Below are positions 141 to 11,669 of a stretch of 11,669 bases of DNA, piece after piece (position 1 is the stretch's first letter; each line of letters starts with the position of its first letter). The stretch comes from Clostridia bacterium. Its GTDB lineage: Bacteria; Bacillota; Clostridia; Oscillospirales; Acutalibacteraceae. The translations under genes were made by a program, and so were the position numbers. Location: assembly GCA_900752115.1 (NCBI GenBank), contig CAADUC010000019.1, positions 1 through 11,669 of the forward strand, in the 5' to 3' direction. The notes under the pieces were generated by a model that was not told the origin of the DNA, did no database searches, and saw only the letters and a program-made list of their open reading frames with translations.

Positions 141-1799
141 GTGGCAAGAAAAAGCAGAAAAGAAACTGTCGTGCTTCCTGCACCGGAGATAGATACCTCT
201 TGCCGCGCCGGAGTTTATGTGCGGCTTTCCGTTGAGGATAAGCATACTCACACCGCCTCTATTGAAACCCAGCAGCTGATTATAGCTCGGTATCTGGAGC
301 AGAACCCGGAGATTATTGTGGTACAGACCTACATTGACAATGGCGCAACGGGTACGAACTTCCACCGCCCCGGCTTCCAGCAGATGCTCTCCGATATTGA
401 AGCGGGTCTTATCAACTGTGTCATCGTAAAGGACCTCTCCCGCCTGGGGCGAAATGTCATAGACACCGGCTACTATATCGAGCGTTACTTTCCCATGCAG
501 AAAGTCCGGTTTATTGCCGTGAATGACCGCTACGATTCTGCTTCCCCGGATAATGCCCACGATGGTATCATCATTCCGCTGCGGAACATGATTAACGAAG
601 CCTATGCGATGGATATTGCCAGAAAGATTAAAGCCCAGCAGCGGCAGGCCATGAAAGACGGCAAGTATGTTGGTGCGCGTACACCCTATGGATATTTGAA
701 AGCTCCTGATGACTGCCACCAGCTGATCGTTGACCCGGTAGCTGCCGAGGTAGTCAAGACCATGTTTCAATGGGCCGCCGAGGGCGCAGGATTAAATACT
801 ATCGCGGTACGCTTGAACGAGGCCGGGTATCTCTCTCCCAGCCACTACAAGAGGACCTTGGGAGAGATCACCCACGAGAATCTGGTGGGCAATGGGCATT
901 GGCAAACCCGCACCGTTGCCAAAATTCTCCGTGCAGAAGTTTATACCAGCGATCTGGTGCAAGGGGTATCTAAAATCATTGACCACAAGCAGGTCAGAGC
1001 CAGCGCCGATGAATGGACAACGGTACGCGGCACCCATGAAGCCATCATCAGCCGGGAGCTGTTTGCAGCTGTTCAGAAAGCGTTGGACCAGGCTGCACAG
1101 CAGGCAAAAGACAGGGAGATCCATTCCTGGTCCCCCAATCTTTTGAAAGGCAAAATCTTCTGCGCCCACTGCGGACGCAGCCTTCACCGACAAAAATGCG
1201 TCCGCAGAAAGTCACAGGAGGTATATGTCTACCACTGTATCAGCAACAACCGTATTAAAAAGGGCGTTTGTTCTGGTGCGTTTATTTTTGAAAAAGAGTT
1301 GCTGGATGCCCTGGCCGATATGATACAGGAACAGCTTGATACCACGCTGGGGCAATACTCTCTCGGTCTGGAAAACCTCACCAAAGAAGCCGAGGAGCAG
1401 AAAAACATACAGGCAAAAATCTTCAGCCGGAAACAGGAAATCCAGCAGCTGCGAACCTATCAGCGTGGATTGTATGAGGGCCTGATCCAGAACCATCTGT
1501 CAAAAGACGAGTATTTTACCTTCAAAGAGAAATACGAAGCCAAAATCGAGGCCATCAGCAAGGATATTGAACAGCTGAAAGCAGGGCTTGCGATTCTCGC
1601 CAAGCAGCTGGAACAGTATAAAATGCTGTCCCAGGATGCACAGCATATCAAAGAAGATCGCCAGCTGACGGCAGCCCTGATTGACCGCCTGATTGACCGT
1701 GTAGAGGTCTCAAGAGAAAAGCGGATTACGGTTCGTTTCCGCTTCCAGAGCGAATTTGAGCATTGTGAGGAGGTGCTGAGCCAGTGCAGAAATATGTGA
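141..1799 (+). CDS. Large serine recombinase (site-specific integrase/resolvase), first of a pair
   Basis: A 552-aa large serine recombinase, predicted to cut and rejoin DNA at attachment sites to integrate or excise a mobile element. Visible parts in order are: the resolvase catalytic domain (about residues 21-165) with YVRLS and nucleophile Ser30, and DLSRLGRN at 98-105; the 'recombinase' DNA-binding domain (about 180-310) containing the typical ARTPYGY entry; a zinc ribbon with Cys341, Cys344, Cys366 and Cys377; and a long charged coiled coil (about 405-505) of the kind that controls integration versus excision. Length is normal and no frameshift is seen. The start is GTG, because TGA at 135-137 closes the frame just upstream; AAAGGTGGG gives the ribosome site. 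Its end overlaps the next recombinase by 16 bp, so the two are co-transcribed and probably translationally coupled. The family call is firm; the particular element and att site are unknown. Confidence 0.95.
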   Translation: MARKSRKETVVLPAPEIDTSCRAGVYVRLSVEDKHTHTASIETQQLIIARYLEQNPEIIVVQTYIDNGATGTNFHRPGFQQMLSDIEAGLINCVIVKDLSRLGRNVIDTGYYIERYFPMQKVRFIAVNDRYDSASPDNAHDGIIIPLRNMINEAYAMDIARKIKAQQRQAMKDGKYVGARTPYGYLKAPDDCHQLIVDPVAAEVVKTMFQWAAEGAGLNTIAVRLNEAGYLSPSHYKRTLGEITHENLVGNGHWQTRTVAKILRAEVYTSDLVQGVSKIIDHKQVRASADEWTTVRGTHEAIISRELFAAVQKALDQAAQQAKDREIHSWSPNLLKGKIFCAHCGRSLHRQKCVRRKSQEVYVYHCISNNRIKKGVCSGAFIFEKELLDALADMIQEQLDTTLGQYSLGLENLTKEAEEQKNIQAKIFSRKQEIQQLRTYQRGLYEGLIQNHLSKDEYFTFKEKYEAKIEAISKDIEQLKAGLAILAKQLEQYKMLSQDAQHIKEDRQLTAALIDRLIDRVEVSREKRITVRFRFQSEFEHCEEVLSQCRNM

Positions 1800-3310
1800 T
1801 TGCCCTTTATATCCGCCTTTCCCTGGAGGATTATAAATACGACAGTATGAGCATTGAAAACCAGCACCTTGCGCTGAACGAATTTGTTTCTTCCATGCCG
1901 GAGTCCTCCAATGCGGAAGTCCTTGAATTTATCGACAACGGGTATAGCGGGACAAACTTTGAGCGGCCCAAAGTCCAGGAGCTGATTGAGATGGTACGGG
2001 CCAATAAGATCGACTGTATCATCGTAAAAGACTTTTCCCGATTTGGACGAAACAGCATTGAGACCGGCTATTTCATTGAGCGTGTGTTCCCGCTGTTTCA
2101 CACCCGGTTCATTTCCATCAACGATGATTTTGACAGCGATCAGCACAAGGGCGATACCGGCGGTATGGATGTGGCTTTCAAGTATCTAATCAGCGAGTAT
2201 TACAGCCGCGATATGTCCATCAAGACCAAAAGCGCCAAGTATGCCAAAATGCAGCGCGGTGAATACCAGAGCAAAGTTTGCCCTTACGGGTATCGCAAAA
2301 GCGCCGATGGCAGAATGGAACCGAACCCGGAAACCGCTGCTGTGGTACAGCTCATTTTCCAACTTGCCGCAACCGGAATTGGAGCGGCAGCCGTTACCAG
2401 GGAACTGTTTAAGCGAGGCATACCGACCCCAGGAGAATACAAAGCAGCTCATGGGCAGCAGTACCACGATGTCTCACGCTCCCGTGGCCGCTGGAGCAGT
2501 TCTACAGTTCTCCGTATCCTGGAGGATGAACGCTATATCGGCTCCTATGTCATCGGGCGTCGTGCAGTCATTGAAGTAGGCGGCACACGGAGCCGCAGAA
2601 AGGACCGGGACAAATGGTTCATTATTCCCGACCATCATCCGGCAATCGTTGATAAAGAACTATTTGAAAAGGTGCAGGCTGTGCAGCGCCGATTCTCCTT
2701 GCCGACCAAGAAAACCAGGGAGTACCCACTAAAAGGCAAGGTCTATTGCGGCTGCTGCGATCATGCACTCTCCCGCATCGCCCAAAAGAGACCGTTTTAT
2801 ATGTGCCGCCATTCCACAGCCGATTTGAACAGCCGCTGCCGCGATGTCCGGGCAGATGCTGCCGGTCTGGAAGAAGCGGTCCTCCTCACTTTGAAAAAGC
2901 AGCTGGAAATCCTGTTGCCCGTACATGAGGACGGCACCATTCACCTGGAGGCCACCGCTGCTAAATGCTCCGAGTATGAGAAGCAGCTGGAAGTTCTGAA
3001 GGACCAGAAGCAAGCTCTCTTTGAACGGTATCTCTTGGGGCAAATCGAGCTGGACACATATAAATCGGAGAAAGCTGTTTATGACGGAGAAATACTGAAA
3101 GTCAAAAACGCCTACGCAGCCGTCACCGCCCAGGCAAAGCTGAAGCGAGAAGAACAGGCTCGCCAAAGCAGCCGACAAGAGATCGTTCACTCGATTGCAG
3201 AAGCGGATGTGCTGACCTCGGAGCTGACCGATTTGCTAATTGAAAAGGTGTATGTATTCCCCGACAATCGCATTGAGATTGTTTACAAAGTCCATGACCT
3301 CTTTGAATAA
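1784..3310 (+). CDS. Large serine recombinase, second of a pair
   Basis: A 508-aa large serine recombinase that is a diverged relative of its upstream neighbour. The catalytic domain starts almost at the N terminus (YIRLS, nucleophile Ser13; DFSRFGRN at 83-90). The recombinase domain follows, with CPYGYRKS near residue 166. The zinc ribbon has Cys322, Cys325, Cys341 and Cys352, and a C-terminal coiled coil runs from about residue 390 to 470. The start is GTG inside the 3' end of the previous gene, preceded by GAGGAGGT at 1766-1773. Both copies keep the catalytic serine and all four zinc cysteines, so both are likely active. Tandem overlapping pairs recall the ccrA/ccrB arrangement of staphylococcal SCC elements and the recombinase clusters of Clostridia ICEs, but sequence-level membership of either cannot be claimed. 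A strong terminator follows 17 bp after the stop. Confidence 0.95.
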   Translation: MQKYVIALYIRLSLEDYKYDSMSIENQHLALNEFVSSMPESSNAEVLEFIDNGYSGTNFERPKVQELIEMVRANKIDCIIVKDFSRFGRNSIETGYFIERVFPLFHTRFISINDDFDSDQHKGDTGGMDVAFKYLISEYYSRDMSIKTKSAKYAKMQRGEYQSKVCPYGYRKSADGRMEPNPETAAVVQLIFQLAATGIGAAAVTRELFKRGIPTPGEYKAAHGQQYHDVSRSRGRWSSSTVLRILEDERYIGSYVIGRRAVIEVGGTRSRRKDRDKWFIIPDHHPAIVDKELFEKVQAVQRRFSLPTKKTREYPLKGKVYCGCCDHALSRIAQKRPFYMCRHSTADLNSRCRDVRADAAGLEEAVLLTLKKQLEILLPVHEDGTIHLEATAAKCSEYEKQLEVLKDQKQALFERYLLGQIELDTYKSEKAVYDGEILKVKNAYAAVTAQAKLKREEQARQSSRQEIVHSIAEADVLTSELTDLLIEKVYVFPDNRIEIVYKVHDLFE

Positions 3311-4762: not shown

Positions 4763-4820
4763 GGTGCGAACCACCATTTCTTCATGTTTCAAAATGAGAC
4801 GTTCAAGGGAGGTTCGCACC
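4763..4820. repeat. Inverted repeat at the outer edge of CRISPR leader 1
   Basis: GGTGCGAACC (4763-4772) faces GGTTCGCACC (4811-4820) across 38 nt; flanking bases add partial pairing. The right arm and the following AGCACAGACAAAAA are conserved at the same place in leader 2 (right arm 11250-11267). The rest of 4654-4808 is AT-rich and holds no gene I can support. Confidence 0.6.
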
Positions 4821-4961
4821 GAAGCACAGACAAAAATCCAGCAATTTTTCATTATAATTCAGGTGAAAACTTGCAAAAGCGATACGTGATATGATATAAT
4901 ACCTGTACGAGTTGTGAAAAATCCGTCCGTTTTCCCTTATGTGATGTTGTGCACTTTTGCT
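4809..4961 (+). promoter_or_regulatory. CRISPR leader 1 with promoter and 5' anti-repeat
   Basis: Leader of array 1. It carries a sigma-A-type promoter: TTGCAA (4871-4876), 18-bp spacer, TATAAT (4895-4900). Transcription should begin near 4907, immediately before GAGTTGTGA (4909-4917). That segment is perfectly complementary to TCACAACTC (4963-4971) in the first repeat. The last bases before the repeat (GTTGTGCACTTTTGCT) are identical in leader 2 and are the likely spacer-integration recognition zone. Overall it is clearly homologous to 11250-11401, with the part between the outer motif and the -35 diverged. Confidence 0.85.
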
Positions 4962-5254
4962 GTCACAACTCATCCCCTCACGGGGACAGAAACGAGTATT
5001 TTTTGACTTTGAAACAGTAGTCACAGTCACAACTCATCCCCTCACGGGGACAGAAACATGAACCCGTAGGTTGACGAGCACATTGCTGCGTCACAACTCA
5101 TCCCCTCACGGGGACAGAAACAAATCACAATAATATCCGCTGTACCCCTCTTTGAGAGTCACAACTCATCCCCTCACGGGGACAGAAACGAGTAACGCTT
5201 AATCGAAAAGCATTCGTTGCAAGTCACAACTCATCCCCTCACGGGGTCAAAAAA
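4962..5254 (+). CRISPR. CRISPR array 1 (5 repeats, 4 spacers)
   Basis: Repeats of 32 nt start at 4962, 5026, 5090, 5158 and 5223; they begin GTCACAACTC and end GGGGACAGAAAC, with an internal hairpin TCCCC-TCAC-GGGGA. Repeats 1-4 are identical. The fifth keeps its first 24 nt, then diverges (TCAAAAAA in place of ACAGAAAC), marking the leader-distal end. Spacers are 32, 32, 36 and 33 nt. The hairpin and 3' tail fit a Cas6-processed class 1 array with an ACAGAAAC handle, but the subtype cannot be set from the repeat alone. No cas genes are in the window. Direction is set by the leader and by the degenerate last repeat. Confidence 0.97.
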
Positions 5255-5296
5255 AGAGGCATGCTACAGCATCACACTGCAACATGCCTCTTTCTT
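5253..5296 (+). terminator. Bidirectional terminator closing CRISPR array 1
   Basis: An 11-bp perfect stem (AAAGAGGCATG 5253-5263 with CATGCCTCTTT 5283-5293) with T-rich sequence after it and an A-run before it, so it could stop transcripts from both sides. It starts inside the degenerate terminal repeat. Confidence 0.85.
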
Positions 5297-5337
5297 ACGC
5301 GAGAACAGGACCAAACTGCCAACCACCAACCGGCGGC

Positions 5338-5443: not shown

Positions 5444-5485
5444 AAAAACGCCGCGCTCTTTTGGAAAAGAAGCGCGGCATTTTTT
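5444..5485 (-). terminator. Terminator of the restriction-modification operon
   Basis: GCCGCGCT (5450-5457) pairs with AGCGCGGC (5471-5478), extended by A/T pairs. It is flanked by A6 at 5443-5448 (a T-run on the minus strand) and by T-rich 5480-5485. It begins at the hsdM stop codon and could also work in the + direction. Confidence 0.9.
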
Positions 5486-7537
5486 ATTCCTCCGCACCGA
5501 GACACACACCGAGATTCTCCTGCAAGCGCTCCAGGATGTCCTTGAGCTCCATGGACGCCATCCACTGGGAGAAAAGCTCCTCGATCATCCGGGCGGCCTG
5601 AGCATCCCCCTCTCCGGGGAGACAGAACTCAAACCCCAGAATATCGTCGGTGTTGAAGTGGTTCTGTCCGGCCGCACCGCGCAGAGGCTTCTTGGCTTTC
5701 TGCACCGCGTGCAGAACTGCAAGGAAGAGAAGCCCCATCCCGATCTCGGAGGAAACCCTGCGCAGAACAAACAGGTTCGTGTTGTAGACGGCGGGCAGAT
5801 CACACGGCCGTGTCAGCGCCAGCTTCCCGATGGACGCGCCGGTGCCAAGGTTGGCGATCATGATGTCGTTCGGCTGCGCCAGGTACTTGTCGAGCTTGTG
5901 CGGTTTGACGAAGTCCTTCCGGATCCGCATCACAGCTTCCCTGTTTGTCAGACCGAAGCTGAAGTTGCTGATCTTGAGGTAGTGCAGGCTATCCTCCGTC
6001 TGCTCTGCCTCTGTCGTTTTGCCGGGGCCGATCAGGGGAACTGACTGAACAAACTCGGAGAGAGAGGCCCTTCTGCCGCTGAACCGGAACCCTTCCTCAC
6101 CGCACAGCAAATCAGCGACACTGTTCCCCAGCGCGTCTTGCTGCAAGAACGGCAGCTGGGAACGATACGCCCCGATCAGCTCGGAGGTTTCCGGTGCAGG
6201 CTCCTCCGACGACATAATGTACCGCGAGGGCTGGAGCAGAAAGGACTGACGTTCCACCTCCTGCACGGGAACGCTATGGCAGAAGTCTATCTCGTCGTCG
6301 TAGCCCTCCCCGTTCTTCCATGCGTGGTACTTGTCCGCAATCCGGCGGATCAGAGACTCCGGGAGAGTATACTTGGAGGGGGAGATCTTCTCACCGAGAG
6401 CGGAAACGTCTACAAACAGGATTTCCTGCGCCCGCGCCGTCCTTCTCTCCTTGCTGCGGGACAGAATCCAGAGATTACAGCCCACGTTGGTATTGGAGAA
6501 CAGATTGGACGGGAGGGAAACAATACACTCGACGCAGTTATCCCGCAGCATCCCGGCCTTGATGTCATTGTACCAGGAGCGAACCTCCGCGCCGCAGCTT
6601 CTGCTCGTAAGCACAGCCGCCACACCCGTGGGGCTGAGCTTGGACAGAATGTGCTGAAGCCAGGCGTAATTGGCATTGTTCGCCGGGGGAACGCCGTACA
6701 CCCAGCGGGGATCATCGGCCACCTTCTCCGCGTCCCAGGCCTGGCCATAGGGCGGGTTGGCAAAGATGAAGTCCGCCTTCAGCAGCCGGTGCAGATCGTT
6801 GGTGAGGGTGTTGGCGGGGCCGCCGCCGAGATCACAGTCGATCCCGCGGATGGCAAGGTTCATCTTGCCGAGCTTCCAAGTGGCCGCGTTGATCTCCTGC
6901 CCGTAGACATGGATAGCGTCCTTGCGGTGGCGGTGACGCTCCACAAATTTTGCCGAACGGACGAAGGTGCCGCCGGAACCGAAGCAGGGATCGTAGATCC
7001 GCCCGGAATACGGCTCAAGCAGCTCTACCATGAGATCCACCAGACAGGCGGGGGTGTAGAACTCGCTCTCCTCCGTGCCGAACTTGCGCAGCAGGAACTC
7101 GTACATGGCACCGAGAACGTCCTCCCCCTCCTTCATCTCGAAGGAGAGCAGATCAATCAGGTCTCCCAGCTGAGAAGAACGAAGCTCCGGACGGGTGTAG
7201 ATCGTCGGCATGACGCCCTTGAGCGCGCTGTTGCTCCGCTCGATCTGCATCATGGCCTCATTGATCCTCCGCCCGATCTCGGGCGTGTGCGCCTCCGCAC
7301 GCAGAGTGCTCCAGCGGGCCTGCGGCGGGATGAAGAAGATATTCTCCGCGAGATAGGCTTCCTCATCCTCCTCGAACCCGTCCCCCTCCTCAAGAAGGGC
7401 CTGGTACTTCTCCTCAAACACCGACGAAACGTAGCGCAGGAACACAAGCCCCAGCACGACTGACTTGTAGTCCGAGCGGTCAATGCTGCCCTGCAGCTCC
7501 CGGCTCCGATCCCAGATGTTCTGCATCATTTCCTGAT

Positions 7538-7541
<4 letters not shown>
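5484..7541 (-). CDS. hsdM: Type I N6-adenine methyltransferase fused to a half HsdS specificity domain
   Basis: A 685-aa protein predicted to methylate adenine and to supply target recognition for the restriction complex. The N-terminal ~100 residues are the HsdM helical domain ([20 protein letters not shown]…). The methylase core has SAM motif I DPCFGSGG at 184-191 and catalytic NPPY at 262-265. Standard HsdM homology ends near residue 445. The extra ~235 residues look like one HsdS half: [10 protein letters not shown] (521-530), a [11 protein letters not shown] (567-576) element equivalent to the G-T-x-GK motif of specificity subunits, [14 protein letters not shown] (626-639), then a helix (about 646-678) resembling an HsdS spacer helix. 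Only one target-recognition domain is present and no separate hsdS is found. The ATG at 7541 overlaps the hsdR stop as ATGA, so translation is coupled. Usual HsdM proteins are about 500 aa. Confidence 0.9.
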
Positions 7542-10651
<3,110 letters not shown>

Positions 10652-10658
10652 GAAAGAT

Positions 10659-10664
10659 CCTCCT
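10659..10664 (-). promoter_or_regulatory. Ribosome binding site fixing the hsdR start
   Basis: AGGAGG on the minus strand ends 7 nt before ATG at 10651 and decides this start over the longer frame from 10912. Confidence 0.9.
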
Positions 10665-10667
10665 CTC

Positions 10668-11027
10668 TCACAGCGGCATGGTTTCGATCTCCAGTCTGAC
10701 CAGCCGTCTCCACCCTGTGTGAACAAACGCAAACTCCGGCTCCTCCCTGCCCTCAGGCGACGCGCGCGTCCTTCCCGTGGGGATGCGCGCCGACTGCGAC
10801 AGCAGCACAGGCTTTTCCCCCGCAAGCCGCAGCAGCGCGCCCAGCAGCTCCGGCGGCAGAACCGCCGCGACGGCGTCGGCATCGCGAAGCGCGGGAAGCA
10901 GCTCCCGCACATCCGTCACCGTATCCCGCCACGGCAGAAGCGCCACCGGAGATTCCAGCGCTCTCTCCAAATCCGCGCGCTGTTCCGCCGTCATCTCGTG
11001 GCGGGAAATCCAAAGCACCTGTTTCAT
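10668..11027 (-). CDS. Small alpha/beta protein of unknown function, first gene of the R-M operon
   Basis: A 119-aa soluble protein with no named function that I can assign. It begins [23 protein letters not shown] (a beta strand, then SRHxMTxEQ and a helix). A second strand (VALLPW), a helix with [20 protein letters not shown], and another strand (KPVLLSQ) follow; it ends in [18 protein letters not shown]. This strand/helix order suggests a small Rossmann-like fold. From memory it resembles short unknown proteins with an SRHxMTxEQ start and a GW-R end found on mobile elements. The 'xxH-x-(M/L)TxEQ' start is also faintly like Csx20-type ring nucleases linked to type III CRISPR; this is a weak impression, not a call. 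The ATG at 11027 has AAGGAGGG 7 nt upstream, and the stop is 16 bp before hsdR, so it is co-transcribed. No TM segment or signal peptide is seen. Confidence 0.8.
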
Positions 11028-11199: not shown

Positions 11200-11267
11200 G
11201 CTCTGGTGCGAGCCTCCCTTTTTTGCACGCCGAAAAAGAGGCGTTTTCAGGAGGTTCGCACCAGAGC
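11200..11267. repeat. Inverted repeat at the outer edge of CRISPR leader 2
   Basis: An 18-bp arm (11200-11217, GCTCTGGTGCGAGCCTCC) faces its complement (11250-11267) with one G·T pair and a 32-nt loop. The left arm alone also forms AGGCTC-TGGTGC-GAGCCT (11198-11215) followed by a T-run, which resembles a short + strand terminator. The right arm matches the start of leader 1. Confidence 0.75.
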
Positions 11268-11401
11268 ACAGACAAAAACCGGGTTCACATTTCACTTTTC
11301 TTTGGGTAAAGCTTGAAAGAACCCTCACAGCATGGTATAATACCTGTGCGGGTTGTGAGAATTCATCCGCTTTTCCCCATACGAGGTTGTGCACTTTTGC
11401 T
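11250..11401 (+). promoter_or_regulatory. CRISPR leader 2 with promoter and 5' anti-repeat
   Basis: Homologous to leader 1. It has TTGAAA (11313-11318), a 17-bp spacer and TATAAT (11336-11341). Predicted transcription begins near 11348, directly before CGGGTTGTGA (11349-11358). That segment pairs with TCGCAACCCG (11403-11412) of the first repeat through 9 Watson-Crick pairs and one G·U. The leader ends with the conserved GTTGTGCACTTTTGCT. Confidence 0.85.
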
Positions 11402-11669
11402 GTCGCAACCCGTTCCCCTCACGGGGACAGAAACTTCCTTTCTAGCCTGTCTCATCAGTGTTAGGAGGTCGCAACCCGTTCCCCTCACGGGGACAGAAAC
11501 AAATAAATCTTGTACATCCTTATCCCTCCTTTATGTCGCAACCCGTTCCCCTCACGGGGACAGAAACTCTAATGTGAGAAGGGAAAGAAAAGAGGATACA
11601 GGAGTCGCAACCCGTTCCCCTCACGGGGACAGAAACAGGAATAGGATGATTAGGATACAGACTGTCACG
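11402..11669 (+). CRISPR. CRISPR array 2, incomplete at the window edge (4 repeats seen)
   Basis: Four identical 33-nt repeats start at 11402, 11468, 11535 and 11604; they begin GTCGCAACCCGTTCCCC and share the 3' half (CCCCTCACGGGGACAGAAAC) with array 1. Complete spacers are 33, 34 and 36 nt; the last, from 11637, is cut by or ends at the window edge. The repeat differs from that of array 1 by three substitutions and one inserted base. Orientation is given by the leader. No cas genes are visible; if they are linked they would lie to the right. Confidence 0.97.

Follow-up and report, generated by a model that had tools for sequence, protein, structure and literature searches.

The stretch of DNA analysed here (the window) spans 11,669 nucleotides of a Clostridia bacterium and carries two CRISPR arrays, referred to below as W1 (array 1) and W2 (array 2). 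Upstream of array 1 lie two genes that by eye resemble serine recombinases (within positions 141-3310), and between the arrays is a type I restriction module (within 5484-10912) consisting of HsdR and HsdM, the C-terminal part of HsdM weakly matching specificity subunits; comparison of HsdM with plasmids and of HsdR with phages gave matches that were all below 60% identity. A small protein of ~119 aa (10668-11027, reverse strand) recurs in array-bearing loci of five other genomes at 34-66% identity (L114:6872-7201, L052:11629-11976, L116:8613-8969, L169:3602-3949 and L061:481-822). The window copy matched no Pfam, NCBIfam or PADLOC model and the five others matched no PADLOC model; our guess is a Rossmann-like protein linked to CRISPR, possibly a ring nuclease. 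None of the eight window proteins scanned matched a cas model, an Rfam scan of the window returned nothing at gathering scores, and no match turned up in plasmids for the leader and repeats of array 1, or in phages for array 2. The features of the two arrays are as follows.

4871..4900, + strand: promoter-like site of array 1; −35 TTGCAA, 18-nt spacer, −10 TATAAT; 10 of 12 consensus matches, TG ahead of the −10
4909..4917, + strand: distal anti-repeat of array 1, GAGTTGTGA; 9 bp; p = 0.0015; predicted pairing probability 0.98
4946..4951, + strand: proximal anti-repeat of array 1, GTTGTG; 6 bp; p = 0.18, non-significant by itself
4962..4993, + strand: first repeat of array 1; paired 5' half 4963-4971, 3' tag ACAGAAAC
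4974-4985, + strand: predicted Cas6 stem in repeat 1 of array 1, CCCC TCAC GGGG; putative Cas6 role, from the relative
4962..5254, + strand: array 1; five repeats, the 3' tag of the last one degraded (GGGGTCAAAAAA)
11313..11341, + strand: promoter-like site of array 2; −35 TTGAAA, 17-nt spacer, −10 TATAAT; 11 of 12 consensus matches, TG ahead of the −10
11348..11358, + strand: distal anti-repeat of array 2, GCGGGTTGTGA; 11 bp including two wobbles; p = 0.0005
11385..11391, + strand: proximal anti-repeat of array 2, GGTTGTG; 7 bp; p = 0.03; predicted pairing favoured over the distal copy (probability 0.74)
11402..11434, + strand: first repeat of array 2; paired 5' half 11403-11413, predicted Cas6 stem 11415-11426
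11402..11669, + strand: array 2; four repeats visible, reaching the window end

The −10 elements end at 4900 and 11341, so that transcription, as judged from promoter consensus matches only, would start about 7 nt downstream, at ~4907 in W1 and ~11347-11348 in W2, at or 1-3 nt before the distal segment. A preliminary description of this DNA had placed that segment at or next to the transcript start, and the predicted starts agree with it to within ~3 nt. Upstream of both promoters we observed an inverted repeat, GTGCGA(A/G)...TTCGCAC (4764-4819 and 11206-11261), with arm starts 49 bp apart. Its TYCGCAC arm occurs upstream in 13 of 18 type III-like arrays (within 200 nt) and in 9 of 12 type I-C leaders (within 200 or 250 nt), compared with 1.8% of mononucleotide-shuffled stretches. 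Where both arms were found, their spacing was 48-49 in nine of ten type III-like arrays, the exception being G589c at 35, and lay at 35-36 in all seven I-C cases; the inverted repeat is likely a DNA-binding site of fixed geometry.

Related arrays were obtained by setting out from L001, a Clostridia contig that had matched a pattern by chance, and sampling genomes of the same class and then of the orders, families and genera around the matches. The closest relatives in this sample are two arrays of genome G1026 (L114, L115), called G1026a and G1026b below, and no relative nearer than G1026 was found among the class, order, family and genus genomes sampled. The window and 11 genomes (12 sources) together supplied a test set of 18 leader-bearing arrays, each with a CCCC-loop-GGGG stem, and the controls were 12 type I-C leaders from related genomes (L005, L006, L118 and nine others), a set found through its leader-end motif. 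Excluded from the counts were a vestigial single repeat (G1026c, L115), a degenerate two-unit array (L060), an array whose leader lies outside the contig (G644, L170), four arrays with almost no leader (L053, L054, L058, L059), two arrays of L018 (its plus-strand array and the second on its minus strand), the array that comes first in L019 and is cut by the contig end, and short degenerate arrays in L119 and L174; L064, L065, L120, L172, L173 and L175 looked like single matches, and L091 duplicates L118. A leader-junction pattern gave four matches in genome contigs, one of them in L003, a Vibrio contig, with no array in L001 (whole), L002 (3800-6000) or L004 (1-3000), while the leader-junction and repeat patterns gave no match in viral contigs.

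The repeats of both window arrays combine a short G+C-rich stem with an 8-nt 3' tag ending in GAAAC (CCCCTCACGGGG ACAGAAAC), which we take to be a type III tag. The operon beside G1026b (L114) matched PADLOC models for Cas10d, III-D Cas5, III-D Cas7, CARF-HEPN, CARF and Cas6; above cut-off, its sole NCBIfam match was TIGR03986 (RAMP), and its Pfam matches were Cas6, the Cas10 palm domain and RAMP. By eye, genes in the G598 operon (L052) follow the same order, and G589 (L018) has one operon of this kind plus another read as III-A-like. Because the G1026b operon is III-D-like and includes Cas6, the window arrays are most likely type III arrays served by Cas6, and III-D-like. A Cas13-type repeat, suggested by the GGGGAC-AAAC ending, was considered and dropped in view of the same operon. 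The window repeats are also unlike the I-C repeat (GTCGC..., ending TGGATTGAAAT or near it, with a large hairpin), the likeness to I-C being confined to the leader end and the upstream element. From the 3' tag, the Cas6 operon of the relative and the degraded terminal repeat, we infer a repeat-guide order for the window arrays. The terminal repeat of array 1 has lost its GAAAC tag and is followed, by eye, by a hairpin and TTTCTT (the whole within 5223-5305), a combination absent from the output of a terminator scan; terminal repeats reading GGGGACAAAAA were seen in other arrays (L053, L057, L058, L059, L061). As expected, such degradation fits a silencing of extraneous crRNA.

We found that in each window leader a segment at the predicted 5' end of the transcript is complementary to the 5' half of the first repeat. 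In W1, GAGTTGTGA and TCACAACTC (4963-4971) form nine perfect pairs with 45 nt between them, and in W2, CGGGTTGTGA (11349-11358) and TCGCAACCCG (11403-11412) form ten pairs including one G-U. The preliminary description had both pairs right in position, letters and length, and the second can be extended to 11 bp by a further wobble at 11348. Measured against 2000 dinucleotide shuffles, complementarity in the distal part of the leader (−65..−26) was in excess in both W1 (p = 0.0015) and W2 (p = 0.0005), as it was for the whole 65-nt leader (p = 0.0040 and 0.0005, respectively). The leader-repeat complementarity is real in both window arrays. Each leader additionally holds a second, leader-proximal anti-repeat copy, overlooked in that description, whose core word starts 16 nt ahead of the repeat in both window leaders (16-19 nt being the range for proximal copies).

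Both copies are also present in both G1026 arrays. Between W2 and G1026b the distal motif is identical at 10 of 10 positions and the leader end at 16 of 17, compared with 9 of 27 between the two copies, which makes the distal motif a conserved island within an otherwise diverged leader. When W1, W2, G1026a and G1026b were aligned, 94.4% of distal cells paired, relative to 34-47% in slid versions of the alignment. The preliminary description had further claimed that leader and repeat covary, and this survives in part: between W1 and W2 one distal pair changes on both sides (A-U to G-C), while the other difference is a U-A to U-G wobble, and a wobble would, under base-pairing rules, let the W2 leader pair with the W1 repeat too. 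The single two-sided change in the four-sequence alignment was equalled by 127 of 500 shuffles and is non-significant, the proximal helix has none, and the several independent two-sided changes by which a covarying RNA structure is recognized were absent from the four rows. Comparison of aligned leaders for compensatory changes, which that description had proposed, thus gave a divided answer, with the motif kept in the diverged G1026 leader on one side and one two-sided pair on the other. As the alignments read, conservation of the complementarity is good and covariation weak.

Across the test set, a distal match at p < 0.05 occurred in 6 of 18 arrays, from 4 of 12 genomes with the window included: W1, W2, G1026a and G1026b (p between 0.0005 and 0.002), G525, and more weakly G1018a (p = 0.04). 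The other 12 arrays had no significant distal match, and distal complementarity was significant in none of the 12 I-C leaders (lowest p = 0.19). With one array per genome (12 of the 18, by analyst's choice), Fisher combination gave 6.4 × 10−4 in the distal part of the leader, 0.0034 over all 65 nt and 0.23 in the proximal part; a fold-based score gave p = 0.0063 across 18 arrays and 0.08 with one array per genome. W1, W2, G1026a and G1026b were significant by both the helix and the fold-based scores, and G525 by the helix score alone (fold-based p = 0.60). Swapping leaders and repeats between genomes gave a mean pairing of 0.41 with foreign repeats against 0.51 with a leader's own; the share of foreign repeats doing at least as well was 0.06 with the W1, W2 and two G1026 leaders; with G1018a, G589c and G589d it was 0, and elsewhere it reached up to 0.93. 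The feature is confined to part of the repeat family and is no general rule. One way to read this distribution is as an inherited coincidence, in which the leader of one lineage gained a duplicate of a short word containing GTTGTG, the match to the repeat being without function. The one clear compensatory change among the W and G1026 arrays and the 12 arrays lacking a match are what this reading predicts, and W and G1026 may represent one event; set against it are the fully identical island in a diverged leader and G525, where a different leader word, GTTGCATC, matches a different repeat, beginning GATGCAAC (p = 0.003), and may be independent since it lies at −37 rather than −53. We regard coincidence as unlikely.

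The proximal copies raise a more serious rival, and the main one, namely that the leader copies are DNA-level motifs binding integration machinery or a regulator that also contacts the repeat, the inverted match reflecting two-fold symmetry of the protein or a cruciform. The W1 proximal anti-repeat overlaps a leader-end motif, TTGTGCACTTTTGCT (4947-4961), that is common to type I-C leaders: all 12 I-C leaders have the leader end TTTGTRYN-TTTGCT|GTCGC (the bar marking the start of the repeat), a count that is partly circular given how the set was found. The distal part of I-C leaders does not pair with their repeats, which gives the proximal word a reason for being there that does not depend on the repeat. 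The spacing of the copies moreover holds at 33-35 nt although the sequence between them diverges, and the inverted repeat upstream, with its fixed geometry, points to DNA sites in these leaders. There is also a precedent in Sulfolobus islandicus, where, in the part of the report available, Cas1 binds a leader-proximal stem-loop whose sequence is of little import (PMC9456107). Three observations pull the other way. All six leader copies in W2, G1026a and G1026b hold a T opposite the G of the repeat; U opposite G is tolerated in an RNA pair, whereas in an exact inverted DNA copy that position would not be T, which supports an RNA-level reading. The flanks of the proximal copy partly track the repeat, being GGG in G1026 and GG in W2 (both with CAACCCG repeats), TG in W1 (CAACTC) and T-rich in I-C. 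Finally, Cas1 was matched in 3 of the 11 array-bearing genomes searched and unmatched in eight (G1026, G598, G1018, G1145, G577, G399, G665 and G740; genome completeness is not given for these). The G1026, G598 and G1018 leaders retain the I-C-like junction motif despite having no Cas1 match. On balance we hold a DNA-level role to be possible, if somewhat improbable.

We then turned to predicted RNA folds. In the predicted ensembles, the partner of nt 2-10 of the first repeat is the distal copy in W1 (probability 0.98) and the proximal part of the leader in W2 (0.74), G1026a (0.89), G1026b (0.88) and G1018a (0.77), the distal part pairing with the repeat in these last four at 0.00-0.22 (W2: 0.22). 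The fold-back of the transcript 5' end over a ~45-nt loop, as initially proposed, is consequently borne out for W1, while in W2 and G1026 the proximal copy is the predicted partner. That the topology is unlike even within the window counts against the reading preferred below, an insulating leader. It also bears on the idea that the helix chiefly guards the leader end against 5' decay: the W1 distal copy, at about +3 to +11 and predicted paired, is well placed for this, but in the four other arrays the distal part is mostly not the partner of the repeat, and we consider such a role very improbable.

With the leader present, the Cas6 stem of the first repeat formed at a predicted 0.96-0.99 in W1, W2, G1026a, G1026b and G1018a. 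Shielding of the first repeat, an effect raised in the preliminary description, is in its II-A/VI-B sense therefore not predicted for W1, W2, G1026a or G1026b, and neither is the opening of a functional repeat structure that marks those systems. A leader that blocks the first repeat, as II-A and VI-B leader-repeat hairpins do, would share the topology of leader RNA pairing with the first repeat (PMC13187072, available sections), but it fits poorly because the helix adjoins the stem rather than covering it. Those same sections place the extra crRNA of repeat-guide systems at the last repeat, and array 1 already shows degradation in its terminal repeat; we judge blocking to be highly unlikely.

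The folds instead point to support of the stem in some arrays. Taken alone, the repeat formed its stem at 1.00 in W1, 0.55 in W2, 0.72 in G1026, 0.52 in G1018a and 0.98 in G525, and leader context raised this to 0.96-0.98 in W2, G1026 and G1018a. When both anti-repeat copies were scrambled, the stem stood at 0.97 (W1), 0.63 (W2), 0.80 (G1026a) and 0.80 (G1026b), whereas scrambling one copy left it at 0.87-0.99 in these four arrays. In these folds, which covered 8 of the 18 arrays in one test and 11 in another, a repeat that folds poorly alone and a leader context that lifts its stem are, by prediction, a trait peculiar to W2, G1026 and G1018a; stems were stable alone (0.96-0.99) in G598, G399, G665 and G1018b. 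Counting against the stem-rescue reading, the G577 stem was at 0.26 alone and 0.34 with its leader, which has no anti-repeat, and W1 and G525 have anti-repeats although their repeats fold well by themselves.

First and internal repeats were compared in 11 of the 18 arrays. In folds limited to upstream context, the stem of repeat 1 exceeded those of all internal repeats in W2 (3), G1026a (10), G1026b (4) and G1018a (3). Once the next spacer was added, internal repeats did at least equally well in 0 of 4 cases in W1, 0 of 3 in W2, 8 of 10 in G1026a, 1 of 4 in G1026b and 2 of 3 in G1018a, and the first stem of G1026a dropped to 0.66, which counts against an insulating leader. The corresponding counts in arrays lacking a significant anti-repeat were 0 of 11 (G665), 2 of 8 (G399), 5 of 15 (G598), 2 of 5 (G1018b), 1 of 3 (G577) and 1 of 2 (G1145a); good first stems therefore also occur outside the anti-repeat arrays. 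The proposition that the first repeat is rescued in every context was dropped, as whole-context folds gave a mixed outcome.

Our preferred reading, to which we assign a probability of roughly 0.38, is that the leader RNA insulates the first Cas6 hairpin, keeping it formed and securing maturation of the newest spacer. The leader RNA would carry two short, partly redundant anti-repeats, the one where the transcript is predicted to begin, the other sharing positions with the conserved leader-end motif; nt 2-10 of the first repeat could pair with either. The resulting helix would sit beside the Cas6 hairpin, not over it, and would take up the 5' half of the repeat, which in AACCCG repeats may otherwise mispair with the GGGG arm; with this half occupied, the first Cas6 stem would stay formed and the 5' tag of crRNA 1 would be favoured. 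In Cas6 systems, cutting in repeat 1 generates the 5' tag of crRNA 1, so insulation should secure newest-spacer maturation. An altered output of the newest spacer is possible on these terms, through protection rather than blocking of the first hairpin. Four arrays (L053, L054, L058, L059) count against an insulator, having similar stems and, by eye, a TATAAT just before the repeat, with almost no leader RNA. The scattered mini-arrays of G577 (L058, L059, L060) mainly keep the stem and tag (e.g. CCCCACAGGGGACGGAAAC) and not the 5' part of the repeat, which suggests that this part is unnecessary for processing; in L058 and L059 the TATAAT lies shortly ahead of a first stem. A broader formulation, in which class 1, Cas6-processed leader RNA acts as a cis folding chaperone whose redundant anti-repeats would give repeat 1 a better hairpin than internal repeats and so privilege the newest spacer, we consider doubtful.

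Several known leaders invite comparison. In the open-access literature, as far as titles and the beginnings of abstracts go, we found no type III or Cas6 equivalent of leader-repeat pairing, and the available parts of a II-C paper (PMC12080349), a review of type III adaptation (PMC9048733) and an I-F integrase preprint (PMC12259127) do not mention leader RNA pairing in type III. The related type I-C leaders share the leader end and, in 9 of 12, the upstream TTCGCAC element, and differ in their repeat and in having no significant distal complementarity (12 of 12). Sulfolobus islandicus I-A leaders likewise combine a leader-proximal stem-loop with a leader-distal motif, the stem-loop, bound by Cas1, having a DNA-level role in integration according to the accessible text (PMC9456107). 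At the RNA level, leader-repeat hairpins are reported in guide-repeat Cas13 systems including VI-B (EMBO J 2026, PMC13187072). In the sections available of that paper, the VI-B helix disrupts the processing hairpin and stops an extraneous repeat-1 crRNA, the repeat-guide control subtype VI-A shows no leader-repeat pairing beyond chance, and the extra crRNA of class 1 is located at the array end. As in those systems, an upstream leader RNA in the window would pair with the first repeat, in excess of dinucleotide shuffles and presumably tuning crRNA output; unlike in VI-B, the predicted helix spares the Cas6 stem, and under the likely repeat-guide order repeat 1 would yield a useful crRNA. In II-A, too, pairing of leader RNA with repeat 1 is tied to output of the newest crRNA (Liao et al. 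2022, as cited in PMC13187072), although there, so far as this citation goes, it acts by interfering with tracrRNA pairing and belongs to another effector class. Leader-repeat RNA pairing has been described where repeat 1 yields a useless crRNA. A Cas6 system with stem-sparing leader anti-repeats would need a different reason for them, and would suggest that class 1 leaders can be tuned towards the newest spacer. If it is true, a chaperone leader would act in the opposite sense to Cas9 and Cas13 leaders, whose hairpins with the repeat are blocking.
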